This document shows positions 9,191 to 49,722 of a stretch of DNA of 64,000 bases, one piece after another; the first letter of the stretch is position 1, and every line of letters starts with the position of its first letter. The translations under genes were made by a program, and so were the position numbers. Under the pieces are notes generated by a model. The model did no database searches and was not told where the DNA came from. It worked only from the letters and a program-made list of their open reading frames with translations. Source of the stretch: a virus; the IMG/VR virus record IMGVR_UViG_3300007352_000013, positions 62,001 to 126,000 of that record, one strand, 5' to 3'.

Positions 9191-9191
9191 T

Positions 9192-9925: not shown

Positions 9926-9926
9926 T

Positions 9927-16028: not shown

Positions 16029-16885
16029 AAATTACTACTTGTAGTCCAAATTCAATAAATATATATAGATCATGTTCATTTAAATATTATTTGAACTATA
16101 TACTCGGCATTAAGATTCCTTCTGGTAAAGCCGCTGTGCTAGGAACAATAGTGCATCAAGTTTTTGAATGGATGGCTAGACTCAAAAAAGCTGGTAAAAC
16201 ACATATAGATTACGACTGGTTATTTGAACGCGCTTGGGAAGAAAATAAACATATAGAATTAAGAAAATTTACTAGTAGGGGTATAAGCGCAGATTTTAAA
16301 AAATGCAAAGAATCCATAAAAAAAGTAGTTGAAGATAAATATTATAATCCATATAATATGAATATACTCGATATTGAAAAATGGTTTGAATTGGACATGG
16401 AAGGTGAAGAATGGTTTACTATAGATAATAAACCATTCAAAATACGTGGATTTATTGATGCAATTAATATTATAGATGACAATACCATAGAAATAGTAGA
16501 CTGGAAAAATGGACAACAAAAAGATCTTTCTAATATGGAAGAAATAAATTTTGATAATATATCAAAAAAAATACAACCAAGAATATATCATTTGGCAGCG
16601 AGCATTCTTTATCCTCAATATAAGAATATTATTATTACATTCTATTATATTAATGGGGATGGACCAATCAGTATAAGTTTATCGGAAGAAGATCTTGTTA
16701 ATACTTTAACTGGTTTATATACTTTTTTTACTACGGTTAAAAAAGATAATCTAATAAAAAGAAATAGAAGCTGGCGTTGTAAAATGTGTCCATACAATAA
16801 AAATGATCTTTGTACAAGTATATGGTCGGATTTGAATACATTCGGAGAACAATTCATTAAGGAAAAGTACGGCAAAAATGAATAA
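16025..16885 (+). CDS. Second PD-(D/E)XK nuclease, RecB/Cas4-like
   Basis: This 286-residue protein has the same plan as the protein at 6800-7729. Cys17 is in RSCSFKYYL, His44 in GTIVH, Asp145 in RGFIDA, Asp159-Trp-Lys161 in IVDWKNG, and three C-terminal Cys are at 252, 255 and 263. The motifs predict a Mg-dependent DNA end nuclease with a 4Fe-4S cluster. It lies between the dNMP kinase and the DNA polymerase, overlapping both, so it probably acts at the fork, for example as a 5' exonuclease for primer removal or recombination. Confidence 0.8.
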   Translation: MKITTCSPNSINIYRSCSFKYYLNYILGIKIPSGKAAVLGTIVHQVFEWMARLKKAGKTHIDYDWLFERAWEENKHIELRKFTSRGISADFKKCKESIKKVVEDKYYNPYNMNILDIEKWFELDMEGEEWFTIDNKPFKIRGFIDAINIIDDNTIEIVDWKNGQQKDLSNMEEINFDNISKKIQPRIYHLAASILYPQYKNIIITFYYINGDGPISISLSEEDLVNTLTGLYTFFTTVKKDNLIKRNRSWRCKMCPYNKNDLCTSIWSDLNTFGEQFIKEKYGKNE

Positions 16886-19196
16886 CATTTATGTACCATT
16901 GCACTGTCACTCTCATTACAGTTTATTAGATGGTTTATCTACACCAACAAAGATAGCAGAAAGATGTAAAGAAATAGGATCTCCATGCGCAACATTAACG
17001 GATCATGGTGGAATAGCCGGATGGGTAGAACTTCAAAAATCATGTAAAAAATTTGGTATTAAACCAATATTCGGAAGCGAATTATATCTTTGTGAAAAAG
17101 ATCCATCAATAAAAAATAAAGAAAATAATAAAAGATATCATCTTACTGTCTTAGCAAGAAATCAGAATGGTATAGAAGATTTGATGAAACTTATTAGTGA
17201 AAGTAATCGTCCCGATTATTTTTACAGAAAACCCAGATTAGATCTTAAGAATATATATAATTTCACTAAAAATAGAAACATAATATGTCTTTCTGGCTGT
17301 TTAGCTGGTGAACTTTCTGAAAATATATTCTCTGATATGAAGCAGGCGTGTATATATGGAGCGGATATAAAAAATATAGAGAGTGTAAGAAAATTATTGA
17401 AACCAAATTGGAAAGATATAGCCGAAAAAATAGTAGATAAATATATAAAAATATTTGGTAAAGAAAATTATTTCATAGAACTTCAGTCGGAAGGTATGAT
17501 TTCTCAAATAGTAACTGTTGAATGTCTAAGGGAACTTGCAAAAGCTTTGAACATACCAACAGTAGCAACTTTAGATAGTCATTATACGTGCAAAGGTGAT
17601 GCAGACGATCAAAGAATATTATTATATTCCCAAATGAGAACAACACAAGAAGAACAAGATAGATTACGTAAAAGTGGCGAAGATTCTATGGCATTTTTCT
17701 ATCTTGATAATTTTTATATATTCTCATATGATGAAATGAAAGAATTTTATGCAGATCATGAAATAGAACAAACATTAATAATATCTGATATGATTAAAAC
17801 ATCGTCATTAGGAAGGCAACCTTGCTTACCTAAATATAATACAGAAGAAAATATTACATCAGACAAACTTATAGAATCATTATGTATAAATGAAGCGAAA
17901 GAAAGATTTGCCAATTTTACACAAGATAAAAAGAGAGTATATTGGGAAAGACTCAAGAAAGAATTGTCTGTAATAGAAGAAGCAAAGTTGGCAGATTACT
18001 TCTTGATAGTATATGATGCTTGTAAATTTATAGACGCACATAATGCACCAAGAGGTAAGGGCAGAGGGTCTGGCGCTGGAAGCTTGGTCAATTATCTATT
18101 AAATATAACGCAGATAGATCCTATAGAATATAATCTTTATTTCGAAAGATTCTATAACGTATCAAGATCAATCCCACCACATTTTGATGTCGGGCCAATA
18201 AAATTTACTCAATGGTTATCAGATAATTATGGCAAAATAAATAAACAACAAATAGAAGAAGCTAGATGTTATATTATAAACAGAATAAGAGATAATATAA
18301 GAAATCATAAACTTAGTGTAAATAATAAATTGTTAAAAGAAGAAAGAGACTGGATAGACAAAAATAATCCTAAAATGTGGTTGTATATATCATATTGTTC
18401 TAAACAATTAGAACCACCAAATCCTAATAATTCACACATAACAGAATTTTATAATTCAAAAATAGAAAAACTGGATGGTAAATATAAAGTTGAAATAAAA
18501 ATAGATATTAATAAACCTGTGAAAATTAATGATGGCCATATAAGTCTACCGGATATAGATACTGATATAGGAGTTGAATTCAGAGAAAGGGTTGTTGAAT
18601 ATCTAATTAATAAATGGGGAGAAAATAAAGTTTCTCAAATGATAACATTTGGAAAATTAATGGGTAAGGCAGCTTTGAAAGAAGTGTTTAGAGCACAACC
18701 CGATCTCGTTAAACATCTGATGAAAGTTAAAGCAGAAAAAGAAGGAAAAGATCCTAATGATATAAATATTACACCATTGGATCTATGTAATGAAATAACG
18801 TCACTTATTCCGGACGAAGCAAGTATTATAGATGAATTACAACATATGAGAGATGAAACCGACGAAGATTATACCATACTTAATTGGGCTATAGATAATA
18901 TAGATAAAATGAAAGAATATTACCAATGGTATAAGCCATTATTCGATACTGCTATACGATTAGAAGGAACTAAAAAGAGTCAATCAAAACATCCTGCTGG
19001 ACTTGTTATATCCGATGTTCCAATAAATCAATTAGTTCCAATGGTTTATGAACCTAAGAATAAAACTAGAGTGGTTGGTTTTGAAATGGGCGCAGCAGAG
19101 TATATGGGATGCGTTAAGTTTGATTTCTTGGGTGTTGTAGCCTTAGACAAAATGTGGTACGCACAAAGTTTAATAAATGGCGTTACAAATGGGTAA
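16878..19196 (+). CDS. dnaE: DNA polymerase III alpha (family C), N-terminal part of a split gene
   Basis: The 772 residues cover the first part of a DnaE polymerase. The PHP domain begins HCHSHYSLLDG (9-19) with TDHGG after it. The palm has KGRGSGAGSLVNYLL and the catalytic aspartates in PDIDTD (Asp559, Asp561), with the third (Asp749) in VKFDFLG. The frame stops 20 residues after that motif, where bacterial DnaE runs on to the FQLESR segment. The missing part is encoded at 32890-34647. An extra stretch of about 120 residues (about 430-553) separates the YFERF and PDIDTD motifs, which are adjacent in bacterial enzymes. The stop overlaps an HNH endonuclease start by 8 bases. The two polypeptides probably associate without covalent linkage. 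Confidence 0.92.
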   Translation: MNNIYVPLHCHSHYSLLDGLSTPTKIAERCKEIGSPCATLTDHGGIAGWVELQKSCKKFGIKPIFGSELYLCEKDPSIKNKENNKRYHLTVLARNQNGIEDLMKLISESNRPDYFYRKPRLDLKNIYNFTKNRNIICLSGCLAGELSENIFSDMKQACIYGADIKNIESVRKLLKPNWKDIAEKIVDKYIKIFGKENYFIELQSEGMISQIVTVECLRELAKALNIPTVATLDSHYTCKGDADDQRILLYSQMRTTQEEQDRLRKSGEDSMAFFYLDNFYIFSYDEMKEFYADHEIEQTLIISDMIKTSSLGRQPCLPKYNTEENITSDKLIESLCINEAKERFANFTQDKKRVYWERLKKELSVIEEAKLADYFLIVYDACKFIDAHNAPRGKGRGSGAGSLVNYLLNITQIDPIEYNLYFERFYNVSRSIPPHFDVGPIKFTQWLSDNYGKINKQQIEEARCYIINRIRDNIRNHKLSVNNKLLKEERDWIDKNNPKMWLYISYCSKQLEPPNPNNSHITEFYNSKIEKLDGKYKVEIKIDINKPVKINDGHISLPDIDTDIGVEFRERVVEYLINKWGENKVSQMITFGKLMGKAALKEVFRAQPDLVKHLMKVKAEKEGKDPNDINITPLDLCNEITSLIPDEASIIDELQHMRDETDEDYTILNWAIDNIDKMKEYYQWYKPLFDTAIRLEGTKKSQSKHPAGLVISDVPINQLVPMVYEPKNKTRVVGFEMGAAEYMGCVKFDFLGVVALDKMWYAQSLINGVTNG

Positions 19197-19800
19197 AATA
19201 ATTGATTTAACAGGTAAAATATTCGGCAGATTAAAAGTTATAAAATTCTTTGGTAAAGATAAACAAAATCATGCTATTTGGACTTGTAAATGTGTATGTG
19301 GGAATACAAGGATGATACTTTCTAATAGTTTAAAAAGTGGCAAAACAAAAAGTTGTGGATGTCTATCTTCGGAAATAGCTTCTAAAAATATGACAAAACA
19401 CGGATTGAGTTGTATTAAAACATACCATATATGGAAAGGTATAAAAAATAGATGTAATAATCCAAATAATCCATCTTATTATAATTATGGAGGACGTGGT
19501 ATCAAGGTTTGTGAAAGATGGATGAAATTTGAAAATTTCTTTGAAGACATGGGAGAACCACCAACAAATAGGCACAGTATAGATAGAATAAATAATAATA
19601 AAGGTTATTCCAAGTCAAATTGTAGATGGACAACAAAAGATAAGCAAGTCAGAAATACAAGACACAATTATAATATAAAATATAAGGGAAAAACCAAATG
19701 TCTAAAAGATTGGGCGAATGAATTGAATATTCCATATGTGACAATATGGTATAGATTGCGCAAATTTAATTGGACAGTAAAAAGAGCTTTTGTTAAATAA
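19189..19800 (+). CDS. HNH homing-type endonuclease, at the polymerase break
   Basis: The start at ATG 19189 (MGKIIDLTGK) lies inside the last codons of the dnaE N-part. The 203-residue protein has an N-terminal Cys module (CKCVCG, then SCGC), then NYGGRGIKVCERW, the HNH core HSIDRINNN at 129-137 with NCRW after it, and a C-terminal DNA-binding region (KCLKDWANELNIPYVTIW). It is built like other free-standing phage HNH endonucleases, which cut near their own insertion site in genomes lacking them. Two relatives lie at 21220-21858 and 60867-61487. Its place exactly at the polymerase break suggests that it caused or inherited the split. Confidence 0.85.
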   Translation: MGKIIDLTGKIFGRLKVIKFFGKDKQNHAIWTCKCVCGNTRMILSNSLKSGKTKSCGCLSSEIASKNMTKHGLSCIKTYHIWKGIKNRCNNPNNPSYYNYGGRGIKVCERWMKFENFFEDMGEPPTNRHSIDRINNNKGYSKSNCRWTTKDKQVRNTRHNYNIKYKGKTKCLKDWANELNIPYVTIWYRLRKFNWTVKRAFVK

Positions 19801-19826
19801 TAGTAAATTTTATAGGTAATTATTAT

Positions 19827-20429
19827 ATGAATAGAATGCAACAATTAGTAATGGAATTTCACAAAAAATTCGGACATACTAATAATAATAAACCAACATT
19901 AACAAACAAAGAACTTAATAAATTTAGAGAGAATTTGCTAGACGAAGAAATTCAGGAGCTTAAGGATGCAATAAATGCCGGTGATTTAGTTGAGATTGCC
20001 GATGCTTTGGGGGATGCACTATATGTTATATTCGGCACTTGTTGTTCACATGGTATAGATATAGAACCAATTTTTGAAGAAGTGCATAGATCTAATATGA
20101 GCAAAAGTTCTTCTGGAAGCAATTGTATAAAACAAAAAAAGGGTAAGAATTATTTTAAACCAAATATAAAATTAGTTCTTAATAAACAATTAATGAAGTG
20201 TAAAAATTGTAAATCAAATAATCTTATTCCTGATCATGCATGTCTATATATTGATGCTGTTGATTTAGATCATCGTCCATATTATTGTTATGACTGTTGT
20301 AATAGCAGTATTAAAAGGGCAGGGATAAAATCGCCAATATATTGTGAACATACTAATCAAATGCCCGCAAATTGTCCGTGCTTAAACGATTGTTATTGCA
20401 AAAATCATTCGTGTAAACAAATTGGATAA
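19827..20429 (+). CDS. MazG-like nucleotide pyrophosphohydrolase with Cys-rich C-terminus
   Basis: Residues 1-95 match the all-helical MazG/dCTPase-type fold, with EExxE at 40-44 and the metal-binding Glu56, Asp59 and Asp63 in VEIADALGDALYVIFG. Such enzymes hydrolyse (d)NTPs to monophosphates and pyrophosphate. In phages they shape the nucleotide pool or lower ppGpp signalling. From about residue 125 the protein has a Cys/His-rich region (CKNCKSN, YDCCN, CPCLNDCYCKNH), probably zinc-binding, which typical MazG-like proteins lack. It is the first gene after the HNH insertion in the polymerase. Confidence 0.7.
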   Translation: MNRMQQLVMEFHKKFGHTNNNKPTLTNKELNKFRENLLDEEIQELKDAINAGDLVEIADALGDALYVIFGTCCSHGIDIEPIFEEVHRSNMSKSSSGSNCIKQKKGKNYFKPNIKLVLNKQLMKCKNCKSNNLIPDHACLYIDAVDLDHRPYYCYDCCNSSIKRAGIKSPIYCEHTNQMPANCPCLNDCYCKNHSCKQIG

Positions 20430-20433
20430 TATA

Positions 20434-21213
20434 ATGAATCAATTTAATTTTAATTGGAATTGTACTAATAAAGAATTGGTAATTTATGTTCCTAACTTTG
20501 GTCGTAAGCATCTACTAATTCCTACATTGAAAAGATTTAAAACTATCGTGCCATATACCAAATGGATGTGGCTGGTAGTTAACGATGGTATTGACGAAGA
20601 TATGTCTGATCTTGATAAGGAATTTAATCTTAAATGGTTTACTTTTCAAAGAGAACCAGCCAATGAACGAAATGGATGTATGATTAGAAATATGTGTATA
20701 AAGAACTGTATGAGTAAATGGCTTTGTACTAAAGACCCGGAAATAATCATAGAAGGCGATATTATATCTAAAATTTTAGATATTAAAGATGATATAGTTT
20801 ATAGACCAAGAGGAATGATTGAATTGTTTGAACAAAACACCCAACAAATAATAGATAATCCATTTTTAGATTTAACTGAATTACCAATATTGAGACAGTG
20901 GGAAGCTAATGATAAAAGGAATCAGGCTTTCCATGCTGGTTGTGCTATAAGAACACAAAGACTGAAAGATATGCGAGGATATGACGAGGGATATAGTGCA
21001 GGATATGGTTTTGAGGATTGGTCAATGCTTGAAAGACTTAAAAAATCAACAAGAGTTATTATAGATAATGATATACAAACTTATCATATCGGTCATCCAA
21101 TTATAAGAAAGTTCCACAAGACTATAGTAAATAATGAATCTATCTATAAAAAAGATTTACAAAATTTAAATATTATAGCCAATAAAAATGTTGAATGGGG
21201 TTATGGAGAATAA
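20434..21213 (+). CDS. Glycosyltransferase family 2-like protein
   Basis: The likely start is ATG 20434 (MNQFNFN); an in-frame TTG lies four codons earlier. The sequence contains LVIYVPNFGRK, VVNDGIDED, NERNGCMIRNMCI, KDPEIIIEGD and a GYDEGYSAGYGFEDWSMLERL segment. The last is typical of GT-A enzymes in which the second acidic motif is E-D-W. It is a paralogue of the protein at 23162-23977, with the same order of motifs. It probably adds a sugar to a phage or host glycan. Confidence 0.7.
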   Translation: MNQFNFNWNCTNKELVIYVPNFGRKHLLIPTLKRFKTIVPYTKWMWLVVNDGIDEDMSDLDKEFNLKWFTFQREPANERNGCMIRNMCIKNCMSKWLCTKDPEIIIEGDIISKILDIKDDIVYRPRGMIELFEQNTQQIIDNPFLDLTELPILRQWEANDKRNQAFHAGCAIRTQRLKDMRGYDEGYSAGYGFEDWSMLERLKKSTRVIIDNDIQTYHIGHPIIRKFHKTIVNNESIYKKDLQNLNIIANKNVEWGYGE

Positions 21214-21219
21214 AAATAA

Positions 21220-21858
21220 ATGCTAAATTTGTCTGGATTAAAATTTGGAAGATTAATAGCAAAAAATATAGTTGGATTAACAAAAGATAAAAGATGTCTT
21301 TGGCTGTGTGTTTGCGATTGCGGCAATACTAAAATATGTACATCTAAAAATTTAAAGGATGGATGCACTAAAAGTTGTGGTTGCTTAAAAAAGGAAACTG
21401 ATATAAAAAATGGAAAAGCAAATAAAAAACATGGATATAAAGGCACTAGAACATATAACATATGGAGAGATATGCTTGATAGATGTAAAAATGAAAAAAA
21501 TATAAGTTATAAAAACTACGGTGGTAGAGGAATTAAAGTTTGCGATAGATGGGATATTTCTGAAGGAGGTTCTTTCGAGAATTTTATTAAAGATATGGGT
21601 GAAATTCCAAAAGGATTGACTATTGATAGAATTGACAACAACGGGAATTATTGTCCAGAAAATTGTAAATTATCTACAAGAAAACAGCAAAGTAGGAATA
21701 CTAGAAAAAATCATTTAATAACTTTTGGCGGTAAAACTCAATGCTTATCTGCTTGGGCAGAAGAATACAACATATGTTTACAAACATTATGGTATAGAAT
21801 AAAAAGGGGATTATCAATTAAAGATGCTATTAATATCCGGAAAGATAATTATGAATAA
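21220..21858 (+). CDS. HNH homing-type endonuclease, second copy of the family
   Basis: The 212-residue protein has the same plan as the one at 19189. It has LTIDRIDNNGNYCPENCK as HNH core, an N-terminal VCDCGN...SCGCL module, YGGRGIKVCDRW, and a C-terminal CLSAWAEEYNI DNA-binding part. It sits between a glycosyltransferase and a sulfotransferase-like gene without disrupting either, so it is a free-standing invader. The stop overlaps the next start by 8 bases. Confidence 0.82.
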   Translation: MLNLSGLKFGRLIAKNIVGLTKDKRCLWLCVCDCGNTKICTSKNLKDGCTKSCGCLKKETDIKNGKANKKHGYKGTRTYNIWRDMLDRCKNEKNISYKNYGGRGIKVCDRWDISEGGSFENFIKDMGEIPKGLTIDRIDNNGNYCPENCKLSTRKQQSRNTRKNHLITFGGKTQCLSAWAEEYNICLQTLWYRIKRGLSIKDAINIRKDNYE

Positions 21859-22453
21859 AAATATAATAATAGGATTAGGAACGGGACGATGCGGCACCGT
21901 TACTTTAGCACATTTGTTAAATAAACAGCCAAATTTTAGTGTCACGCATGAATTTAATCCTACTTTTTGGGAATTTGATTACGGGTCTTTGATATTCCTT
22001 TTGAATAAACTAGAAAAAAGAACGCAGAATAATATTGGTGATATAGCCTATTATCATCTTAATTATTGTGAGCATATATTAGATAAAATTAATAATGTTA
22101 AATTTCCTATAATGATTAGGAACAAAGAAGATGTTGTTAAAAGTTACATGAAGTGGACTAACGGACGTAATCATTGGTCAAAAGAAAGATCTAGAAATGA
22201 AAAAGAAGACAAATATTGGGATAAAACTTATCCAAAGTATAATTTACCAAAAATAGAAGCACTTAATAAATATTATGACGATTACTACACAAAGTGCAAT
22301 GATTTAATAAATAAGTATCCAAATAAATTCAAGTTATTTGAAATGCTTGAAACATTTAATACTGAATCTGGACAAAATAATTTATTAGATTTTATTGGTA
22401 TAAATGAGAATGACAGGATATTAGATATTGGAATTAGGAAAAATGCTTCTTGA
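21851..22453 (+). CDS. Sulfotransferase-like protein
   Basis: The start at ATG 21851 is chosen because the longer opening is inside the HNH gene. Residues 6-18 (IIGLGTGRCGTVT) form the 5'-phosphosulfate binding loop typical of sulfotransferases, where GTGRCGT replaces the usual P-loop Lys with Arg. A motif that would bind the 3'-phosphate (IRNKEDVVKSYMKW) follows near residue 90. These features predict transfer of sulfate from PAPS to a sugar or similar acceptor. It lies inside the sugar cluster and overlaps the next gene by 11 bases. Confidence 0.65.
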   Translation: MNKNIIIGLGTGRCGTVTLAHLLNKQPNFSVTHEFNPTFWEFDYGSLIFLLNKLEKRTQNNIGDIAYYHLNYCEHILDKINNVKFPIMIRNKEDVVKSYMKWTNGRNHWSKERSRNEKEDKYWDKTYPKYNLPKIEALNKYYDDYYTKCNDLINKYPNKFKLFEMLETFNTESGQNNLLDFIGINENDRILDIGIRKNAS

Positions 22454-23165
22454 TAAAGTAACATTATTAATAAAAACATTTGAAAGACCAGACTGTTTAA
22501 AAAAATTGCTTAATAGCATATATAAATATTATAAAAATATTCCAATAATAGTAGTAAACGATGGCGTTCCAATAAATGACATTCCAAATGTATTTCAAAT
22601 CAATGTTGACTTCGATATGGGCGCTTCATATTGTAGAAATCTGGGATTATCAATGGTTAATACACCCTATGTTGTCACGCTCGATGACGATTTTATATTT
22701 AATGAAAGAACCAAATTAGAGACATGGTTAGATATACTTGAAAATACTTCTATTGATTTGATTTCTGGCGACGTAACAAATACGAGATATGAAGCTTGTT
22801 TTAAATTAGAAAATAAAATTTTACAATTTGTTAGAAAAAATAAAGGTATAGAATCTGGTTATCCGTTATATGATATAGTTCTTCAGTTTTGGATGGCAAG
22901 AACAGAAAAAATAAGATCTTTTGGTGGATGGTGCAATGAATTTAAAACAATAGATCATATGCCCTTTTTTATAAATGCTTTTAACAAAATTAAGATAGCG
23001 TATTGTAATAGCGTATACGTAGACCATAAACAAGAAAGAACAAAAGAATATAATAGATTTAGACAAGATAGATCTCAAATGTATTTTGATTTGATTTTAG
23101 ATAAATTTAATTTAAATAAAATAATAGGATATTGGGGCAATGTTGTTTCGGAAAAAAGAAAATGA
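22443..23165 (+). CDS. Glycosyltransferase family 2
   Basis: The start at ATG 22443 is preceded by AGGA. The 240-residue protein shows a GT2 core: TLLIKTFERPDCLKKLL at the N-terminus, IIVVNDG, a segment GASYCRNLGL, and the metal-binding triplet DDDF (VVTLDDDFIF). The N-terminal pattern resembles GalNAc-type transferases of vertebrate-like and bacterial capsule enzymes. It acts on a sugar acceptor within the local glycan pathway. The ATGA overlap with the next glycosyltransferase indicates coupled expression. Confidence 0.75.
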   Translation: MLLDKVTLLIKTFERPDCLKKLLNSIYKYYKNIPIIVVNDGVPINDIPNVFQINVDFDMGASYCRNLGLSMVNTPYVVTLDDDFIFNERTKLETWLDILENTSIDLISGDVTNTRYEACFKLENKILQFVRKNKGIESGYPLYDIVLQFWMARTEKIRSFGGWCNEFKTIDHMPFFINAFNKIKIAYCNSVYVDHKQERTKEYNRFRQDRSQMYFDLILDKFNLNKIIGYWGNVVSEKRK

Positions 23166-23977
23166 TATCATTTAAAAATTTCGATTGGAAACAAACAAAT
23201 AAAGAACTTGTATTATTAATCCCAAATTTTGGTCGTGGAAAATATGTAAGACAAACATTAAATAATCTTATAGAAACTTCTATTTCAAAAGACAGATGGG
23301 TAATTTTGCTTATTAATGATTCTATACATGAAGATTTTAGCGATTTAGAAAATGAAAATATTTTATATTTTACTGTAGAAAGAAATAGTAAACATGAAAG
23401 GGGTGATGCTTTCATGAGAAATATTTGTATTAAATATTCACAATCAAAATTGCTGGCACAAAAAGACCCTGAAATTTTTTATACTAATGATTTTATAAAA
23501 GGATGTTTTAACAATCAGGGTGTATTGTATAGATGTGGTGGTATGGCACATTTAGCCAAAGAACAAGACACACATAATTATCTTGATAATAATATTGATG
23601 TTAATAAATTGATTAAAAATTCTGATAAATATCCAATAACAGAAAGATTTGTTTATTGGCATTTCGGTCATTGCGCACCAATAGAATGTTTTAGAAAATT
23701 AAATGGATACGATGAAGATTTTAAATATTATGGATATGTAGATACGAATATGTGGGATAGACTAATGAAGTCCGGATTAAAACAACGTATTGATCCAACC
23801 TGTAACCCCATACACTTATGGCATCCAAAACCCCATTTTAAAACTCACGAAAGAGACATAAAGAGATACGAAGCTATGGGTAAGCTTTATAATAACAAAA
23901 TAAATCAAGATATAGTTGCTAATATTAATGTCGAATGGGGCGAGGGCGATACCTTATATTTACCGGAGATAATATAA
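23162..23977 (+). CDS. Glycosyltransferase family 2-like protein, paralogue of 20434
   Basis: The start is ATG 23162 (MISFKNFDW); upstream in-frame codons lie in the previous gene. Motifs line up with the 20434 protein: LVLLIPNFGRGK, LINDSIHED, NSKHERGDAFMRNICI, QKDPEIFYTND and GYDEDFKYYGYVDTNMWDRL, where the second acidic site reads D-T-N-M-W. It was probably produced by duplication within the locus. It ends with TAATG coupling to a sulfotransferase-like gene. Confidence 0.7.
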   Translation: MISFKNFDWKQTNKELVLLIPNFGRGKYVRQTLNNLIETSISKDRWVILLINDSIHEDFSDLENENILYFTVERNSKHERGDAFMRNICIKYSQSKLLAQKDPEIFYTNDFIKGCFNNQGVLYRCGGMAHLAKEQDTHNYLDNNIDVNKLIKNSDKYPITERFVYWHFGHCAPIECFRKLNGYDEDFKYYGYVDTNMWDRLMKSGLKQRIDPTCNPIHLWHPKPHFKTHERDIKRYEAMGKLYNNKINQDIVANINVEWGEGDTLYLPEII

Positions 23978-24711: not shown

Positions 24712-24714
24712 AAT

Positions 24715-25791: not shown

Positions 25792-25793
25792 TA

Positions 25794-26018: not shown

Positions 26019-26031
26019 TAAGAGGAAGATT

Positions 26032-27018
26032 ATGGGTAAGAAAAGGGCATTAATATTCGGTATAACTGGTCAAGACGGTTCTTATTTAGCTGAACATTTG
26101 CTTGAATTGAATTATGACATATTTGGAACAGTGAGGCGGAATTCTGTTCCGGAAAGCCAAGGTACTAGAATAGACCATCTTTCTGGTTTAATAACAACAT
26201 CATATGCAGATTTAAGCGACAATTCATCTATAGAAAGAATTATTAAAGATTGTCATCCAGATGAAATATATAATTTAGCAGCACAATCACATGTAAGAAT
26301 AGGTGCCGATATTCCATTATATACAGTACAGACCAACGCTCTTGGAGTGGCTAACATTTTAGAAGCTTATAGAAAATTCGCACCAAATGCCAAGTTCTAT
26401 CAGGCATCTTCTAGTGAAATGTTCGGTAACAATGTTGATAAAGATGGATTCCAAAGAGAAACAACGCCTATGGAACCAGTTTCAGTTTATGGATGCACCA
26501 AATTATTCGCATTCAATCTCGTTAAATATTATCGTCGAGCATTTAATCTATTCGCTTGCAATGGCATTCTGTTCAATCACGAATCGCCACGTAGAGGAAG
26601 TAATTTTGTTACATCTAAAGTAGTTAAAACGGCAGTAGAAATTTCATTGGGTATTAGTGATAAATTAATTCTTGGAAATCTTGATAGCTATAGGGATTGG
26701 GGTCATAGCTATGATTACGTCAGAGCTATGAAATTGATTCTTGATGAAAATGGACCAAATGATTTTGTTGTTGCAACAGGAGAAACGCATTCTGTTAGAG
26801 AAATGTGCGAATATGTTTTTAATAGATTAGATTTAGATTATAGAGATTATATTGAAATAAATCCGGCATTTTATAGACCAGAAGAATTAAAATATTTAAA
26901 GGGTGATAGCACAAGAGCCAGAAATATTCTTGGATGGAAACCAAAATTTACTTTCCAAACTATGTTGGATGATATGATCTATCATTGGCAAAAAGAATTA
27001 GTTACCAAAAGGAATTAA
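26032..27018 (+). CDS. gmd: GDP-mannose 4,6-dehydratase
   Basis: This extended short-chain dehydrogenase of 328 residues has GITGQDGSYL (10-19) for NADP binding, SSSEMFG around Ser128 and Glu129, and the catalytic Tyr153 and Lys157 in YGCTK. FNHESPRRG and FVVATGE are typical of Gmd rather than of dTDP-glucose dehydratases. It converts GDP-D-mannose to GDP-4-keto-6-deoxymannose, the precursor of GDP-fucose, GDP-rhamnose and GDP-perosamine. It has a GAGGAAG ribosome binding site. The aminotransferase upstream and the fucosyltransferase-like genes downstream fit use of this product. Confidence 0.92.
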   Translation: MGKKRALIFGITGQDGSYLAEHLLELNYDIFGTVRRNSVPESQGTRIDHLSGLITTSYADLSDNSSIERIIKDCHPDEIYNLAAQSHVRIGADIPLYTVQTNALGVANILEAYRKFAPNAKFYQASSSEMFGNNVDKDGFQRETTPMEPVSVYGCTKLFAFNLVKYYRRAFNLFACNGILFNHESPRRGSNFVTSKVVKTAVEISLGISDKLILGNLDSYRDWGHSYDYVRAMKLILDENGPNDFVVATGETHSVREMCEYVFNRLDLDYRDYIEINPAFYRPEELKYLKGDSTRARNILGWKPKFTFQTMLDDMIYHWQKELVTKRN

Positions 27019-27019
27019 T

Positions 27020-27310
27020 ATGTCTAAAATTAGAGTATATGATCGTGAAATAAATAATATAGTTAATTACCTTAATAAGCTTTTAGAATTAGATCGTGCA
27101 GCTATTAATAAATTATTTTTAGATAATTATGTTGTAGTTAATAAAAATATAATGAATCATAAATATGCCCAAGTAAGAATGGATGGTAAATTTGGAATCC
27201 TCGGTTTAATAAATGGAATTATTATTCCGCACAATAGAGTTATTTATATGGATTTGGACGAAAAAGAAAATATAATAAAATTTAGATCGAGTAAATACAA
27301 AAATGATTAA
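27020..27310 (+). CDS. Hypothetical protein, 96 aa
   Basis: This small protein starts 1 base after gmd and is mostly alpha/beta by composition. It has an RMDGKFGILGLINGI segment, which resembles a strand pair. No known motif is seen. Its place within the sugar operon suggests co-expression, and nothing more can be said. Confidence 0.55.
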   Translation: MSKIRVYDREINNIVNYLNKLLELDRAAINKLFLDNYVVVNKNIMNHKYAQVRMDGKFGILGLINGIIIPHNRVIYMDLDEKENIIKFRSSKYKND

Positions 27311-27336
27311 TAGAATTATCACAAAAGGAAAATATA

Positions 27337-27711
27337 ATGGCTGGGAAAGGCGATAGATATAGACCAGTTAATAAAGAAGTTTATGATAAAAATTTTGAAT
27401 GTGTATTTGGTATTAAAAAATTAAATATTATGTCCAATGAAGATCGTGAAGAATTAATTTATGACAGAGATGGAAAAATTGGTAGAAATATATCTTCGGA
27501 CGGATATGACAGTAGAAACATTCATGAAGCGAGCCAAATTGCTTCGGGCAAAAAGAGACGCCGTAAAGCAAAAACATTCTGGATCGGCCCCGGCTACAGA
27601 GGCGAATATAGTTGTCCACACGGAGTAGGACACGGAAATCATATTCATGGATGCTGTCAAGAACGATGTTGCACAAGAGAAGACTTTCCATTGAGGAATA
27701 AAAATGGCTAG
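27337..27711 (+). CDS. Hypothetical basic protein with Cys/His-rich end, 124 aa
   Basis: It starts after an AGGAAA box with MAGKGDRYRP, an N-terminus common to several phage hypothetical proteins. The middle is basic (GKKRRRKAKTFWIGPGY), and the C-terminal part is His/Cys-rich (CPHGVGHGNHIHGCCQERCC), probably metal-binding. It overlaps the next gene by 8 bases. No enzyme class can be assigned. Confidence 0.55.
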   Translation: MAGKGDRYRPVNKEVYDKNFECVFGIKKLNIMSNEDREELIYDRDGKIGRNISSDGYDSRNIHEASQIASGKKRRRKAKTFWIGPGYRGEYSCPHGVGHGNHIHGCCQERCCTREDFPLRNKNG

Positions 27712-28117
27712 ATATATTTATTCTAAGGTTGATCCAACTAAACTTTTACATATTATACATGACATAACAGAAACAAAAGAACAAAGAGAAGATCTTGTTC
27801 CACCCAATAATTTTCTTCAAATAGCAACTATACCATTAAAAGCAAATCAAACATTTAAGGCTCACAAACATATATGGAATAACTTTAATGGTCCCAAAAT
27901 CGCGCAAGAATCGTGGATAGTTATTCGCGGAAGAGTTGAAGCTACTTTATACGACATAGATAATACTATATTGGAAAAAGTTATACTACACGAGGGTCAT
28001 TTATCTATTACATTAGAAGGCGGTCATAATTATATGGCTTCACCTGAAGGTGCATTTGTTTATGAAGTAAAAACAGGGCCGTATCAAGGAATAGAGTTGG
28101 ATAAGGAATTTATTTAA
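27704..28117 (+). CDS. Cupin-fold protein, possibly sugar-modifying
   Basis: The 137-residue protein reads as a single cupin barrel. There is a KANQTFKAHKHIWNN strand with histidines, then WIVIRGRVEATLYD, then EGHLSITLEGGHNYMASPEGAFVYEVKTGPY. The double His cluster could bind a metal. Related cupins in sugar loci isomerise or epimerise keto-sugar nucleotides (FdtA/WxcM type) or act in sialic-acid pathways. The locus supports a sugar role, but the exact reaction is not shown. Confidence 0.6.
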   Translation: MARYIYSKVDPTKLLHIIHDITETKEQREDLVPPNNFLQIATIPLKANQTFKAHKHIWNNFNGPKIAQESWIVIRGRVEATLYDIDNTILEKVILHEGHLSITLEGGHNYMASPEGAFVYEVKTGPYQGIELDKEFI

Positions 28118-28497
28118 TGAAAATTTATATAGCAACTAAAAAACAAGATGCAGCCGTAGCATTAAGAAGAAAATTAAAAGAAATTTTTCAAGATAAAGTT
28201 AGTTTTGTTAGTTCATGGATAGATCAAGAAAGCTATGGAAATACTCCTATATGCCAAAAAATGGCTATTGCCGAAAGATGTGAAAACGATGTTAAACAAT
28301 GCGATTTATTAATAAACATAGCTGATGAAGTAAATACGCACGGAGGAAAGCACGTAGAACTAGGAATAGCTCTGGCTTTAGGGAAAAAAATAATGGTTTT
28401 GGGTAGAAAAGAGAATATCTTCCATCATCATAAATCTGTTATATTTTTCGAAACAGATGATAAATTGATTGATAAAATGAAAGAAATGATTCACTAA
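28117..28497 (+). CDS. Nucleoside 2-deoxyribosyltransferase-like protein
   Basis: The 126-residue Rossmann-like protein has MKIYIATKK at the start. A central helix carries AERCENDVKQCDLLINIADE. The GKHVELGIALALGKKIMVLG segment resembles the GTxxExGxAxAxGKPV pattern of deoxyribosyltransferase and MTH538/SLOG-type proteins, with Glu as the likely nucleophile. It may cleave or exchange the N-glycosidic bond of nucleotides, or bind nucleotide-derived signals. The neighbours are sugar genes, so a nucleotide-sugar link is possible. Confidence 0.6.
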   Translation: MKIYIATKKQDAAVALRRKLKEIFQDKVSFVSSWIDQESYGNTPICQKMAIAERCENDVKQCDLLINIADEVNTHGGKHVELGIALALGKKIMVLGRKENIFHHHKSVIFFETDDKLIDKMKEMIH

Positions 28498-28526
28498 ATG
28501 GCTTAAGATATCTGCGAGAAAAAGAA

Positions 28527-29066
28527 ATGCTAAAATTACATTTAGGCGCTGGAAAACGAGATTTTGGAGAAGGATGGTTCAATGTTGATATAGCCGATTT
28601 TCCTCATATTCATCACAAAGATATAACTAAACTTCCATTCGAAGACAATTCTGTCGATCTTATCTATTCTGCACATACCATAGAATACTTTGATAGACAA
28701 GAGATTATCCCAATTTTACAAGAATGGAAACGTACTCTCAAACCAAATGGAATACTTCGTCTAGCTGTACCAGATTTTGAAACTATGTGTATGCTTTATT
28801 TTTCACAAATGTATCCAATAGAAAATTTCTTGGGTCCATTATACGGAAAAATGGATGTAGGTGATAAAAAAATATATCATAAAACATGTTATGATTTCAA
28901 AAGTTTATCGACATTATTAATGTCTATTGGAATGAAAAATATAAGAAGATATAAGTGGAGAAATACTGAACACGCACAATTTGACGATCATTCTCAAGCA
29001 TATCTTCCGCATATGGATAAAGTAAATGGGGTGTGTTTAAGTCTAAATGTTGAATGTGAAAAATAA
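28527..29066 (+). CDS. Class I SAM-dependent methyltransferase
   Basis: This 179-residue protein begins with LHLGAGKRDFGEGWFNVDI, which combines the SAM-binding GxGxR-like motif with an acidic strand end. LPFEDNSVDLIYSAHTIEYF and LKPNGILRLAVPDFE follow in the order of the methyltransferase fold (family 11 type). Its closest relatives by pattern methylate sugars in polysaccharide loci. It shares one base with the FkbM gene that follows (TAATG). The substrate is not known. Confidence 0.78.
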   Translation: MLKLHLGAGKRDFGEGWFNVDIADFPHIHHKDITKLPFEDNSVDLIYSAHTIEYFDRQEIIPILQEWKRTLKPNGILRLAVPDFETMCMLYFSQMYPIENFLGPLYGKMDVGDKKIYHKTCYDFKSLSTLLMSIGMKNIRRYKWRNTEHAQFDDHSQAYLPHMDKVNGVCLSLNVECEK

Positions 29067-29695
29067 TGGAAATAATTCAGAGATTAAAAGACATAATAAA
29101 AAAGCCAAATCCACTAATTATAGAAATAGGATGCTGGAATGGTAGAGACACAGAATTATTTTTGAATATATTCCCTGAATGTAAGATATTTGGATTTGAA
29201 CCAGACCCAAGGAACATAGAAAAAATAAAAAAAAGAATAAATAATCGAAGATTCGAATTAATAGAAGAAGCTATAAGTGATAAAGATGGGATTATAACTT
29301 TTTATGAAAGTCATGGAATAGCTAATGGGGAAAGTGATTGGAGCGCTTCTAGCTCTTTGAATAAACCCAAAAAACATTTAGATATAAATCCCCATATTAC
29401 TTTTGGAAATGGAGTTAAAGTTTTTGGAAGAAAATTAGATAATTTCATAGAAAAAAAACAAATAAAAAATATAGACTTAATTTGGGCCGACGTTAATGGT
29501 GCAGAATATAAGATGATAAATGGTGCTTTAGAAACCATGAAAATAACAAAATTTCTATATACCGAATTCAGCGAAAAGGAAATATACGAAGAAAGCATCA
29601 CTAAAGAAAAAATTAAAAGCATGTTACCTAATTTCAAAGAAATATTTACCCACAAAAATAACGTATTATTGGAGAATAAATTATTATCTACATAA
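29066..29695 (+). CDS. FkbM-family methyltransferase
   Basis: The 209-residue protein has IIEIGCWNGRDTELFL (SAM motif I), FGFEPDPRNIEKI with the acidic residue that binds the ribose, VFGRKLDNFIEKKQI and LIWADVNGAEYKMINGAL. This is the ordered set seen in FkbM methyltransferases (usually KIDVEGxE, here DVNGAE). Such enzymes O-methylate sugars in glycan pathways. The stop lies inside the proposed start region of the next gene. Confidence 0.8.
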   Translation: MEIIQRLKDIIKKPNPLIIEIGCWNGRDTELFLNIFPECKIFGFEPDPRNIEKIKKRINNRRFELIEEAISDKDGIITFYESHGIANGESDWSASSSLNKPKKHLDINPHITFGNGVKVFGRKLDNFIEKKQIKNIDLIWADVNGAEYKMINGALETMKITKFLYTEFSEKEIYEESITKEKIKSMLPNFKEIFTHKNNVLLENKLLST

Positions 29696-30630
29696 CAACA
29701 CAACATGAACGGGGTGTCAAAAATCGTTACAATAGTGATGGCGCTATTGGTCATCATTTCTTAAATTGGTTAAAGGGTCCGGTTTTGGCGCAAAGATATG
29801 GTTTAAGATATGTATATAATAATATAGTTCCAGATTATATGGGTACGCAATGGAACGAATTCTTGGGTTTAGATAAAAGAGTTCCTTCCAAACTTAATGA
29901 ATTAGGAGTTCCGGTTTACTCCATTAGTGACATAAAAAATTGTCAAATAGTAGATATCCCACAAATAGAATGGAACGCATCATATACCCATCCAATAATT
30001 ATTGAATATATTAATAAATACAAATATGCATCAATAAATGAAGATGAAAATATTTTATTAAGAACATCACCCGGACGTGGATTTTATATAGATTGGCAAT
30101 ATTGGCTTAATAATGATTTAAGAGAAAAATATGATTTTGCTAGACAAGAAAATCCTGTTGAGCTACATAATGCTGATGATTTTTATATGGTTTGTATTCA
30201 TTGGAGAAGGGGAGATATAAATAATAAAGATCAGCCGGAAAGATGGATCACTAATGAACGATATTATAAATTAATAAATAATATTAAAAATACATTAGAT
30301 AATTTATATATAAGATATAAGATACAAATAATTTCAGAAGGTGAACAAAAAGATTTTGGATGCGTAAATGATATAGACAATATAGAATTCGTATTAAATG
30401 AAAACCCGATAATATCATTCCATAGAATGATTATATCCGATATTCTTATTAATGCAAAATCTGCATTTTCTGTTTGTGCAGCATATTTTCATAAGGGTCC
30501 AAAGCTTTGTATTCCATTTAGTATATATTGGCAGCAAACTCATCCAGATAATGATAACTTTAAAGATCTTATATGGATAAATGAGAGTATGGATTTTCAT
30601 ATTAAAACATTGGATATATTGTTAGGATGA
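29680..30630 (+). CDS. Fucosyltransferase-like glycosyltransferase (HxRRGD type), apparent ATT start
   Basis: The conserved protein begins upstream of any usual start codon. The frame is open from 29680, directly after an in-frame TAA, and the peptide GAIGHHFLNWLKGP...LAQRYGL matches the start of the paralogue at 31210 (GIGHQFLNWL...LAQRYGL). A GGAG box at 29671-29674 precedes ATT codons at 29680 and 29683. The first usual start is TTG 29785, which would remove this conserved region. HWRRGD at 174-179 is the donor-binding motif of GT11 and related fucosyltransferases. It would use GDP-fucose or another GDP-sugar such as that made from the Gmd product. Confidence 0.65.
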   Translation: MIIYITTQHERGVKNRYNSDGAIGHHFLNWLKGPVLAQRYGLRYVYNNIVPDYMGTQWNEFLGLDKRVPSKLNELGVPVYSISDIKNCQIVDIPQIEWNASYTHPIIIEYINKYKYASINEDENILLRTSPGRGFYIDWQYWLNNDLREKYDFARQENPVELHNADDFYMVCIHWRRGDINNKDQPERWITNERYYKLINNIKNTLDNLYIRYKIQIISEGEQKDFGCVNDIDNIEFVLNENPIISFHRMIISDILINAKSAFSVCAAYFHKGPKLCIPFSIYWQQTHPDNDNFKDLIWINESMDFHIKTLDILLG

Positions 30631-31208
30631 AAATATTAGTGGGCTGTGAATTTTCTGGAGTCGTTCGTAGTGCTTTTGCAGCAAAGGGTCACGATGCTTG
30701 GTCTTGTGATTTGCTAGATACAGAAGTTAATGGTAATCATATAAGGGGTGATCTTTTAAAGATACTAGATAACGGTTGGGATTTGGCTATATTCCATCCA
30801 CCATGCACATATTTGTGTAGTAGTGGTTTGCATTGGAACAAAAGAAAACCAGAAAGACAAAAATTAACAGAAGAAGCTTTAGAATTTGTTAGAAAATTAT
30901 TGAATGCGCCTATAGAAAAAATAGCGTTAGAAAACCCAATAGGTTGTATTTCGACAAGAATAAGAAAGCCGGATCAAATTATACAACCGTTTCAATTCGG
31001 CCATTCGGAGAGTAAATCAACTTGTTTATGGTTAAAAAATCTACCATTATTAAAACCCACTAAAATATTGGATACACCAGAATGTGGATATTGGAACAAC
31101 CAAACTCCTTCTAGACAAAATAAGTTAGGACCATCTGATAATAGGTGGAAATTAAGATCAATAACCTATCAGGGTTTTGCCGACGCTATGGCGAATCAAT
31201 GGGGATAA
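30627..31208 (+). CDS. DNA cytosine methyltransferase-like protein
   Basis: This 193-residue protein has a Rossmann start (LVGCEFSGVVRSAF, with GCEFSG as the SAM-type loop), a short D-L-L-D strand end, and HPPCTYLCSSG (Cys60), a PPC motif as in C5-cytosine methyltransferases. It is much shorter than full C5 enzymes and lacks an obvious target-recognition domain. Similar short proteins occur in phages and may modify DNA or be inactive. It overlaps the preceding stop (ATGA). Function in this sugar locus is unclear. Confidence 0.55.
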   Translation: MKILVGCEFSGVVRSAFAAKGHDAWSCDLLDTEVNGNHIRGDLLKILDNGWDLAIFHPPCTYLCSSGLHWNKRKPERQKLTEEALEFVRKLLNAPIEKIALENPIGCISTRIRKPDQIIQPFQFGHSESKSTCLWLKNLPLLKPTKILDTPECGYWNNQTPSRQNKLGPSDNRWKLRSITYQGFADAMANQWG

Positions 31209-31209
31209 A

Positions 31210-32178
31210 ATGAATAGATATATAACTGTTAAACCACATGGTGGATTTGCGGGAATTGGTCATCAATTTCTGAATTGGTTAGTTCCTTACGTGCTTGCGC
31301 AAAGATATGGTCTTAAATTCGTTCATCAAAATTTCGTTGGAGAAACAGACGGTACTTTTGCTCCAAGGGGTTCTAACGCTAATCAAATAACTAGACCAGT
31401 AAAAGAATGGAATAATTTTCTAAATTTAGGAGAAGGTGAAATAACATTACAAGATTTAAATATACATAGCTTAACAGAAATAAATCTACCGTATATAGAT
31501 CAAGAAAAAGCAACTTGGAATAATATAGAATTTTCGTCTTTATTAGAAAATGATCTTCGTACAATTGGCAAATTTTGTGGAACATTGTATAGAGTATCGG
31601 AAGATATAGATGGACAATTTGTACACATAGATTGGGATTTTTATAAAAGTAATAATCTAAAGAAAAAATATAATAACTCACAACAGGTAAAGAATTTCAA
31701 ATGTTATTTTGATGAAGGATGTACAAATGTAGCCATACATATCAGAAGAGGTGACGTTACAGAGAATACACCGTACAGAAGATGGCAAAATCTAGGTTAT
31801 TATCTTGGAATAATAGATAATTTATCAAATATAAAAGAACTAAAGAATGTAGTTTTTCATATCTATTCTTGGGATATGTCTAAGGAAGAAAGAGATGTAT
31901 TGTTTTTGCATAGTATTTTCGGGAAAAGAGAGATAGAATTACATATAGACGAAGATGTTTTTTCAACATTCTACCATATGACAAAAGCAGATATATTTGT
32001 GTCTGGCCAAGGTGCATTTTCTTTAATGGCTAATTACTTGACCGATGCAGTGAAATTAACAACACCATTTTATATGCATTGGAAAGATTTTCCAGAAGAT
32101 ATTCATGATATAATAGAAGTTAGACCAGATAGTTCTTTTAATCAAAAAAAACTTTTAAAAGCATTGGGAAATAAATGA
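31210..32178 (+). CDS. Fucosyltransferase-like glycosyltransferase (HxRRGD type), paralogue of 29680
   Basis: The start is ATG 31210, preceded by GGGGATAAA; a longer opening lies in the previous gene. HIRRGD at 177-182 is the GT11-type donor site, and GHQFLNWL near the N-terminus corresponds to the acceptor-side glycine-rich segment of fucosyltransferases. The last third (DIFVSGQGAFSLMANYLT) matches the SxxSxxA-type motif. The GDP-sugar donor could come from the gmd branch. It overlaps the next methyltransferase by four bases (ATGA). Confidence 0.72.
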   Translation: MNRYITVKPHGGFAGIGHQFLNWLVPYVLAQRYGLKFVHQNFVGETDGTFAPRGSNANQITRPVKEWNNFLNLGEGEITLQDLNIHSLTEINLPYIDQEKATWNNIEFSSLLENDLRTIGKFCGTLYRVSEDIDGQFVHIDWDFYKSNNLKKKYNNSQQVKNFKCYFDEGCTNVAIHIRRGDVTENTPYRRWQNLGYYLGIIDNLSNIKELKNVVFHIYSWDMSKEERDVLFLHSIFGKREIELHIDEDVFSTFYHMTKADIFVSGQGAFSLMANYLTDAVKLTTPFYMHWKDFPEDIHDIIEVRPDSSFNQKKLLKALGNK

Positions 32179-32747
32179 AAAAATTAGACTGGAGAGAGGT
32201 TGAGGGTTGGTTTTCTGAAGCTGACGCCGCTTTCGTATCAGATATATTGAAAGATACTCGCAACGGAACCGTAGTAGAAATAGGATTATTTTATGGTCGA
32301 GCTAGTGCTGTTATGATGCCACTGGCCCTTGATAATGGAAATCAGTATTATGCAATCGATAATTTTTATGGTGGTGTAGACGAAACAACACCAGCTTCAA
32401 AAATTCAAAGATCAGACGGCGCTAAAGTTATGGCAAAATTTATATCTAATATGAAGGCTTTAGGAATAAATCGTTCCGATTACGCTTTATATAAATCCAA
32501 TAGTATTGAAGCTTCAGTTTATTTACCCGACGAATCTGTAGATTTTTGTTTTATAGATTCGGATCATGCTTATGAATCGGTGAAACTAGATTTAGAAACT
32601 TGGTGGAAAAAAATCAAAATTAATGGTATATTAGGGGGCCATGATTACAACAATCCGGATGTTAGAAGAGCTTTGGACGAATTCGTTAAAGACAAAAATG
32701 TGACCGTACAAACCGGGGGAAATTGTTGGAATCTTATAAAAAAATAA
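32175..32747 (+). CDS. Class I SAM-dependent methyltransferase (MTase 24-like)
   Basis: This 190-residue protein has VVEIGLFYGRASAVMMPLAL (SAM motif I), YYAIDNFYGG, VDFCFIDSDHAYESVKLDLETWW and LGGHDYNNPDVRRALDEF. This order and the FIDSDHAYE motif match family 24/CmcI-type methyltransferases, which act on sugars or small molecules. It is the last gene of the sugar block, and the polymerase sequence resumes 143 bases after it. Confidence 0.78.
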   Translation: MKKLDWREVEGWFSEADAAFVSDILKDTRNGTVVEIGLFYGRASAVMMPLALDNGNQYYAIDNFYGGVDETTPASKIQRSDGAKVMAKFISNMKALGINRSDYALYKSNSIEASVYLPDESVDFCFIDSDHAYESVKLDLETWWKKIKINGILGGHDYNNPDVRRALDEFVKDKNVTVQTGGNCWNLIKK

Positions 32748-32908
32748 ATAGACTATTCGATGATGCTCCTAGTAATAAAGAGGTTTTAGAAATAAAAAGA
32801 AGGAATAAAAACGGAGAATCTGTCGCTAAAATTAAAAAAGATATGAATATACATCCAAAATTTATAACAGATATAATAAAGAAGTATAAATGGAAAAAAC
32901 TAAAATAA
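32723..32908 (+). pseudogene. Short HTH ORF, possible homing endonuclease remnant
   Basis: The frame encodes 61 residues from TTG 32723 (second TTG at 32726), after a GGGGGA stretch, with no ATG in a sensible place. The part EVLEIKRRNKNGESVAKIKK followed by IHPKFITDIIKKYKWKKL has the form of the DNA-binding helix-turn-helix that ends many HNH homing endonucleases. No HNH core remains. It overlaps the end of the methyltransferase and the start of the polymerase C-part. I read it as the tail of a lost endonuclease, but a small DNA-binding protein is possible. Confidence 0.4.
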
Positions 32909-34647
32909 AATTTGCTAATTGTGACTGTATCGTTGAACCGGGAAAATTTGATGTAAATAAAATTCCAACAAATTGCCCAGCTACTTTTGCGCTCATTTCT
33001 TCTGGTTTTACAACTGGAATTTTTCAACTCGAAAGTAGATTGGGAATGGATTGGGCTAAGAAGGTACAGCCACAGAATATAGAAGAGATTGCAGCTTTAT
33101 CTGCATTATTAAGGCCCGGCGCTTTAGAGAGTGGACAATCCGAGGAATATGTAGATATAAAATTTGGTAGAAAACAACCTTCGTATTTACATCCGGCATT
33201 AAAAGATATTTTGTCAAGTACATATAATTCTATGATTTATCAAGAACAGGCATTGGCCATAGCGAAAGAAATAGCCGGATTTACTATGGAAGAAGCAGAT
33301 AATTTAAGAAAAGCTGTTGGAAAAAAGATTCCAGAATTGATGGCTTCTTTAAAACAAAAATTCATAGACGGAGCATTAAATAATAAGGTAACTAAAAATG
33401 TTGCAGAACAAATATTCGATTGGATTGAGAAAAGTCAGCGATATTCGTTTAATAAATCTCATGCAATTGCTTATGGAATATTAAGTTATAATACGGCTTG
33501 GATGAAATGTCATTTCCCATTAGAATTTTTTACAAGCTATTTAACGTATTCGGATTATAAAGCTGATACGATGGATGAAATTTATAGATTGGTTCAGGAT
33601 GCTCGTTTATTTGGAATAGAAGTTTTGCAACCGGATATAAAAGAATGTAATGTAAAATTTAAGATGACAGATGATAAAATAAAATTTGGATTATCTAATA
33701 TAAAGGGGGTTGGTCCATCTGCAATAGAAAAAATTATAAAGAACGGAAAAGAATCATTATCAACTTGGCAAGGATTTTTAAAATCTTTACCAGCATTACA
33801 TAGAAATGTTGGAATAGCACTTATAAAATCTGGATCTTGTGATTGTTATAATAAATCAAGATCACAAATGATCAAAGAACTAGAATGTATATTTGGCACT
33901 CAGATTAAAGATGAAAATGGCAAAACAAAAGAAATCAGAGGTTTAACAGAAAGAGAAAGAAAATGGTTTTTTCATAAACTTGGTGATGAAAAGTCTGTTA
34001 TAGATGTATTAAATGAAATGACAAATAAAGTAAATGAGATGTCAACTAGATCATTAGGCGGAATGAATAAGGGTGAAATAATAGATTTCACGAAAGAATA
34101 TACCGGATTAAAAGACGAAGATTTAATTGGAAAGACAAAATTCGATGTTATAAATATACTTAAAAAATATGGATACGAAACAAATAGAGATAATAAACCT
34201 CTTTCAAATATAAAAAGAATATCTATTATAAAAGAAAAAATAAAAGAACTACAAGAAATATCAGAAGATACTAATTTGGGAAAAGCTACTGCTGAAAAAT
34301 ACTTTTTAGGAATCTCTTTATCATGCTCGCCAGCAGATGACGCAGATGACGAATGTGCAACTCATACATGTCTAGATTTGGCAAAAGCTTTAAATGGAGA
34401 AAATTTTTCAATTTGTGCTGTAATAGATAATGTAAAACATACCAAAACTAAAAGAGGTAAAAATATTGGGGCGGCAATGTGTTTCTTAACCATTTCTGAT
34501 TCTACCTACAGTATAGATCATGCGGTGGTTTTTCCCGATTCATATGAAAAATTAAGCAAATACTGTAAAGATGGTATGATTTGTTTGCTACAGGGTTATA
34601 AAAAGAATGGATCTATAATTATTGAAAATATAAGAAAATTAATTTAA
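32890..34647 (+). CDS. dnaE: DNA polymerase III alpha (family C), C-terminal part of a split gene
   Basis: The 585 residues continue DnaE from where the 16878-19196 part stops. GIFQLESR (43-50), ALLRPGALESG, MIYQEQALAIA, EADNLRKAVGKK and RYSFNKSHAIAYGILSY (185-201) are the fingers and thumb-side motifs. The helix-hairpin-helix region has FGLSNIKGVGPSAIEKI, and an OB fold lies at the end (CAVIDNVKHTKTKRGK...GYKKNGSIIIENI). About 40 N-terminal residues before FQLESR fill most of the loop missing from the first part. It carries no catalytic Asp, so it is useless without the first part. SSB follows after 45 bases. Confidence 0.92.
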   Translation: MEKTKIKFANCDCIVEPGKFDVNKIPTNCPATFALISSGFTTGIFQLESRLGMDWAKKVQPQNIEEIAALSALLRPGALESGQSEEYVDIKFGRKQPSYLHPALKDILSSTYNSMIYQEQALAIAKEIAGFTMEEADNLRKAVGKKIPELMASLKQKFIDGALNNKVTKNVAEQIFDWIEKSQRYSFNKSHAIAYGILSYNTAWMKCHFPLEFFTSYLTYSDYKADTMDEIYRLVQDARLFGIEVLQPDIKECNVKFKMTDDKIKFGLSNIKGVGPSAIEKIIKNGKESLSTWQGFLKSLPALHRNVGIALIKSGSCDCYNKSRSQMIKELECIFGTQIKDENGKTKEIRGLTERERKWFFHKLGDEKSVIDVLNEMTNKVNEMSTRSLGGMNKGEIIDFTKEYTGLKDEDLIGKTKFDVINILKKYGYETNRDNKPLSNIKRISIIKEKIKELQEISEDTNLGKATAEKYFLGISLSCSPADDADDECATHTCLDLAKALNGENFSICAVIDNVKHTKTKRGKNIGAAMCFLTISDSTYSIDHAVVFPDSYEKLSKYCKDGMICLLQGYKKNGSIIIENIRKLI

Positions 34648-45240: not shown

Positions 45241-45247
45241 GTTTATA

Positions 45248-47977: not shown

Positions 47978-47985
47978 ACCATCTC

Positions 47986-49710: not shown

Positions 49711-49722
49711 ACGTACCTCTTA

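Follow-up and report, generated by a model that had tools for sequence, protein, structure and literature searches.

How does a phage replicate when its family C DNA polymerase is encoded in two genes lying 13.7 kb apart? The question is raised by a stretch of 64,000 nucleotides, hereafter the window (positions 62,001 to 126,000 of IMG/VR record IMGVR_UViG_3300007352_000013, a viral contig of 129,435 bp). A preliminary description had placed there a natural split of DnaE, in the loop between the VKFDFLG and FQLESR motifs, into parts of 772 and 585 residues that together are complete. The open reading frames (ORFs) match these lengths and positions, and the Pfam matches and motif alignment agree with the reading of a split. 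From sequence comparison, we consider it likely, with a probability of about 0.83, that the two genes encode a two-polypeptide DnaE-type polymerase, that its N and C parts assemble non-covalently, and that the split arose once, in an ancestor, and has been kept since.

The first gene, dnaE-N (16878..19196, + strand, 772 aa), encodes the PHP domain, thumb and palm with all three catalytic aspartates, and also retains every PHP metal-binding position known from bacterial DnaE. The second, dnaE-C (32890..34647, + strand, 585 aa), encodes the fingers, the helix-hairpin-helix (HhH) and the OB fold, and has an extra N-terminal leader of about 18 residues with an FxxCxC motif; the distance between the two genes is 13,693 bp. 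In Pfam, the N part matched PHP (4e-38) and DNA_pol3_alpha (2e-64), and the C part matched DNA_pol3_finger (2e-47) and HHH_6 (9e-16); the OB match was below the cut-off, but this fold is backed by the structural and profile comparisons. The PDFDVD and VKFDFLG motifs of Escherichia coli DnaE aligned with PDIDTD and VKFDFLG in the N part, and AVFQLES and FNKSHS aligned with GIFQLES and FNKSHA in the C part. The profiles of both parts matched Pol III alpha structures, that of the C part beginning at E. coli residue 583. The AlphaFold2 single-chain models were confident (pLDDT 91.3 for N and 92.8 for C), and fold searches with both again returned Pol III alpha structures (best E values 3e-39 and 4e-23, respectively). 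As dnaE-N ends just past the helix that follows VKFDFLG, core residues are neither lost nor duplicated, which answers the alignment check proposed in the preliminary description. The two parts thus amount to a single complete DnaE, divided in the palm-fingers loop. The domains and motifs of a DnaE-type family C polymerase are present (PHP, a palm with the PDxD and KxD aspartates, fingers, HhH and OB), and the single-polypeptide form, usual in this family and not strictly required, was found neither in the window nor at the 147 related loci described below.

Relatives were collected by protein searches of IMG/VR followed by two profile scans; these scans started from split sequences and retained only the best 80, and the resulting counts are no measure of the frequency of the split among DnaE-encoding phages. 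Separate N and C ORFs with an identical cut, order and strand were found at 147 loci, a count that includes some contigs twice; clustering at 85% yielded 93 clade sequences, including the window, its close relatives and locus L172. At nearly all loci, the N ORF extends for 22–41 residues beyond the first position of the KxDxLG motif and the C ORF starts 19–68 residues ahead of GxFQLE. The nearest relative, G001, a different contig with 77/80% identity, has the same layout with a gap of 13.2 kb. The gap is about 11.8 kb in G006, 18 kb in G007 and 8.5 kb in G008, and less than 1 kb in more distant relatives. The search for an uninterrupted gene in related phages, also proposed in the preliminary description, led to only three loci with N and C in one ORF: L048 and L049, both bacterial, and, in part, L172, in which palm-b and fingers are fused in a single ORF (9143-11593) and PHP/palm-a is split off. 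A contig scan with the C part found only two relatives, both bacterial and both unsplit.

E. coli DnaE and phage DnaEs served as outgroups in FastTree phylogenies, in which all 93 clade sequences (92 split ones and the nested L172) were monophyletic, with support values of 0.981 in the N tree, 0.999 in the C tree and 1.0 in the joint tree. The distances obtained with the two parts were correlated (r = 0.92 over 4278 pairs). The window subclade was strongly supported (1.0, joint tree), and L147, whose two genes lie 2 bp apart, grouped with it weakly (0.68). These phylogenies indicate that the split is ancestral to a large uncultivated phage group rather than a private event of one genome. The position of L172 within the split clade suggests that its fused ORF is possibly a re-fusion.

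Several other explanations must be weighed against a working two-chain polymerase. Contig misassembly, which the preliminary description had named as a possible refutation, has a negligible probability: nothing was found in its favour, and it was excluded on the grounds that G001 and many independent metagenome contigs share the same gene order. The pieces could also be remnants of a decaying gene in phages using the host polymerase, and fragmentation in the clade is indeed extensive, with three-piece versions at L158, L101 and L129. However, both ORFs are open and have been retained across divergence down to about 35–40% identity, the 137 complete members have the three catalytic aspartates and FQLE without exception, and NKSH almost without exception, and nonsynonymous divergence (dN, 0.11–0.38) is far below synonymous divergence (dS, about 1.5–4 or saturated) in both halves, a comparison made by NG86 and used for its direction alone, since dS is often saturated. 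With helicase, primase and single-strand binding protein (SSB) genes nearby as well, decay appears improbable. We attach as little credence to separate jobs for the two chains, with N serving as a PHP nuclease or nucleotidyltransferase and C as a DNA-binding factor. The genes are separate and, in some genomes, 8–18 kb apart, but both chains keep the residues composing one Pol III alpha active site, they are co-inherited in single copy and their trees are congruent. Each of the 26 contigs of 97–205 kb carries a single fingers gene, and neither PolA nor PolB was recognised in any of them. The presence of another complete DnaE, which would also have spoken against the preliminary description, was not observed, as no second copy was found in the 129,435-bp record.

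The halves might instead be joined covalently after expression, by split-intein protein trans-splicing or by RNA trans-splicing. A split intein joins the two parts of cyanobacterial DnaE (PMC3919608), and split-intein-like halves are present at another site of the same gene in L101 and L091. However, the two halves have start and stop codons of their own, no intein domain was detected by Pfam in either part from the window, and no intein sequence was found at the inspected N ends and C starts of the palm-fingers junction, nearly all of which are too short for one. The gap-facing ends thus lack the intein halves of the cyanobacterial type, and no Rfam match, including introns, was obtained at either junction, even at E<=1; covalent joining therefore has only a slim chance of being correct. 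The HNH endonuclease gene at 19177..19800 (+ strand; phrog_374, 5e-74) overlaps the last codons of dnaE-N, and the preliminary description had drawn an analogy with Aeromonas phage Aeh1, in which mobE split nrdA. Bacillus phages G and KLEB27-3 also have endonuclease genes where their DnaE is broken. This analogy does not hold, as the split is older than the HNH gene: among the relatives in which the junction was compared, HNH directly follows dnaE-N in the window only. An origin of the split through this gene is accordingly even less probable than covalent joining, and HNH as its maintained cause was rejected because the relatives are split without it. The comparison indicates that the HNH gene is a late, local insertion, and an ancient endonuclease may have given rise to the ancestral split.

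Further breaks and inteins were observed elsewhere in these genes. Fractured genes, reportedly described by Dassa in 2009, are said to carry a split intein with an endonuclease gene between its halves; intein halves were not found at the palm-fingers break, and were seen at another site in L101 and L091. In these two loci (L101 6002-9062 and L091 5286-7975), dnaE-N is broken again between GRG and SAAG of the palm motif GRG-SAAG, with intein-like ends: the pieces end in YNVEG(I/L)(G/A)VHN immediately before SAAG. These ends are probably split inteins in the same gene, and L101 has an endonuclease-like ORF between the dnaE-N pieces. In L158 (6012-9005; also L161, L164, L169, L171 and L173) and L129 (5347-7633), dnaE-N is in two pieces without inteins, cut in a palm insertion loop, giving three-gene DnaEs; a LAGLIDADG-like ORF lies between the pieces in L158. 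Apparent cis-inteins are present beside the RPG motif of dnaE-C in L041 (2080-4791) and L045 (10766-12919).

The usual layout in the clade is N, a DnaQ-like exonuclease gene and C, with about 0.9 kb between the halves. The exonuclease gene was found between N and C at 132 of the 147 loci (131 identified by script, plus L087, where the predicted start of C falls within the ORF), suggesting a three-gene core. The remaining 15 loci are L147 and members of the window lineage, and G000 gave no RNase_T match. Members of the window lineage have 1–18 kb of variable cargo at the junction. In the window, the island extends over 19827..32747 (+ strand) and includes genes for a MazG-like protein, glycosyltransferases, sulfotransferases, a DegT aminotransferase, a GDP-mannose 4,6-dehydratase and methyltransferases; it is common to G001, G006 and G007, and the other relatives carry different cargo. 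The preliminary description was right that many genes separate the parts, but they do not belong to the polymerase system: the comparison indicates that this island of about 13 kb, for sugar and methyl transfer, is later variable cargo. The flanks are conserved in the window lineage: primase, dNMP kinase and nuclease genes precede N, and genes for SSB (34693..35163, + strand, in the window) and a 568-aa protein follow C.

We therefore favour non-covalent assembly of the two chains as the most likely outcome, in line with the joint assembly proposed in the preliminary description, given that neither an intein nor a known intron was found at the junction. Chain N would contribute the PHP domain, the thumb and the palm with its catalytic aspartates, and chain C the fingers, HhH and OB fold; the natural palm-fingers interface would hold the two together, and either alone would be inactive. 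This DnaE is the only DNA polymerase recognised in these phages and its cut goes back to their common ancestor, so that they probably copy their genomes with a naturally two-piece enzyme. A broader proposal, to which we give somewhat less confidence while still finding it probable, is that a whole phage lineage has an obligate two-subunit family C polymerase, mostly within a three-gene core of N, exonuclease and C, in which the split has been stable despite deep divergence and the locus has opened to cargo islands. In the window lineage, which lacks the intervening DnaQ gene, the PHP domain may proofread, since all its metal-binding positions are kept. Since each half is a gene of its own, the junction would have become a tolerated cargo site, the window carrying there what would be a 13-kb glycan-modification island. 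Some points weigh against this interpretation. The congruence of N and C follows from their sharing of genomes and is no proof of contact; the contigs are fragments, and a second polymerase may lie outside them or be of an unrecognised kind; novel introns or processing may be involved; and the support consists of sequence comparison and single-chain models.

Other observations concern the start of dnaE-C. Its leader contains a conserved cysteine triad (CxC ... C) at C-part residues 11, 13 and 29 (window 32920-32928 and 32974-32976), present in 114/137, 114/137 and 128/137 members, respectively; a metal site or a redox link at the junction is possible. In the gap before the gene (32748..32889, + strand), one frame, read by eye, resembles the DNA-binding tail of a homing endonuclease; it is possibly a remnant, seen in the window and in none of the relatives. 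A promoter-like TATACA-18-TATAAT was noted by eye at 32848-32877, upstream of dnaE-C. A scan for promoters and terminators between the halves found sites no more numerous than in shuffled sequences. In most members of the window lineage, GGTATAAT is located 13 nt upstream of the dnaE-C start (L039 16203; L041 2067; L042 12704; L057 9985; L146 9982; L053, L055, L133 and L141 9985), and it recurs just after dnaE-C in L039 and L041; the window has a degenerate form only. This sequence may be a promoter-like element of dnaE-C's own. Elsewhere in the window (43651-52107, - strand), four large proteins of 528–908 aa had no PHROG match.

A split DnaE as such is already known from isolated phages. The preliminary description considered a natural split at this loop, with an operon between the parts, unusual; the split is real, but it is shared by a large clade, and other phages have divided DnaEs as well. 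Rossellomorea phage phiT1, an isolate, resembles the clade in having a two-gene DnaE (gp20/gp18, PV767480) cut in the same palm-fingers loop, but its genes lie about 150 bp apart, with a 49-aa ORF and no DnaQ between them, and the CxC leader is missing. Its DnaE fell outside the split clade, and its same-loop split is therefore independent. Bacillus phage G, also an isolate, resembles the window in having separate DnaE genes spread over 10.8 kb with several genes between (gp329/gp331/gp339, NC_023719). It differs in having three pieces, the last break preceding VKFDILG and so placing one catalytic aspartate on the C chain, and in containing an insert that resembles a cis-intein, as well as a homing endonuclease gene; the tree does not include it. 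A two-gene DnaE is also present in Bacillus phage KLEB27-3 (gp166/HNH/gp164, OM634661), but with a later cut, after FQIE inside the fingers, and the HNH gene in the gap. In Microbacterium phage Crestdrop (gp56/gp57) and Papyrusvirus Nilo (gp74/gp76), the two-gene DnaE is cut between PHP and palm, unlike that of the window, leaving the polymerase core in one chain. Cyanobacterial DnaE, like that of the window, is a replicative polymerase made from two distant genes, but it is joined by an intein, and its cut lies just before the FNKSH motif. The closest parallels for split enzymes working as two chains, as proposed here, are the T4-type gp43A/gp43B of phages 25 and 44RR and the NrdA of Aeh1; these are, however, a family B polymerase and a ribonucleotide reductase, respectively, known from single phages, and their parts are separated by an endonuclease gene or a short untranslated sequence. 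The gp43A and gp43B proteins of phage 25 co-purify and polymerise, and split Aeh1 NrdA works as two chains (PMC2988022). No description of a palm-fingers split of a phage DnaE was found in the open-licence papers searched, an absence of little weight, nor any discussion there of the split DnaEs of phiT1, G, KLEB27-3, Crestdrop and Nilo. What is new here is a lineage-wide, ancestral and intein-free palm-fingers split, together with the exonuclease gene encoded between N and C and, in the window lineage, the cargo islands.

Such phages would be scored as having a partial DnaE or none by gene callers and polymerase surveys built around a single long ORF. If the pair is active, it would be possible to purify palm and fingers as distinct subunits and to mutate or exchange them, making the assembly and the fingers movement of a family C replicase directly testable. 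It would also mean that a central replicase can stay fragmented, with no inteins at the break, over long evolution in widespread phages.
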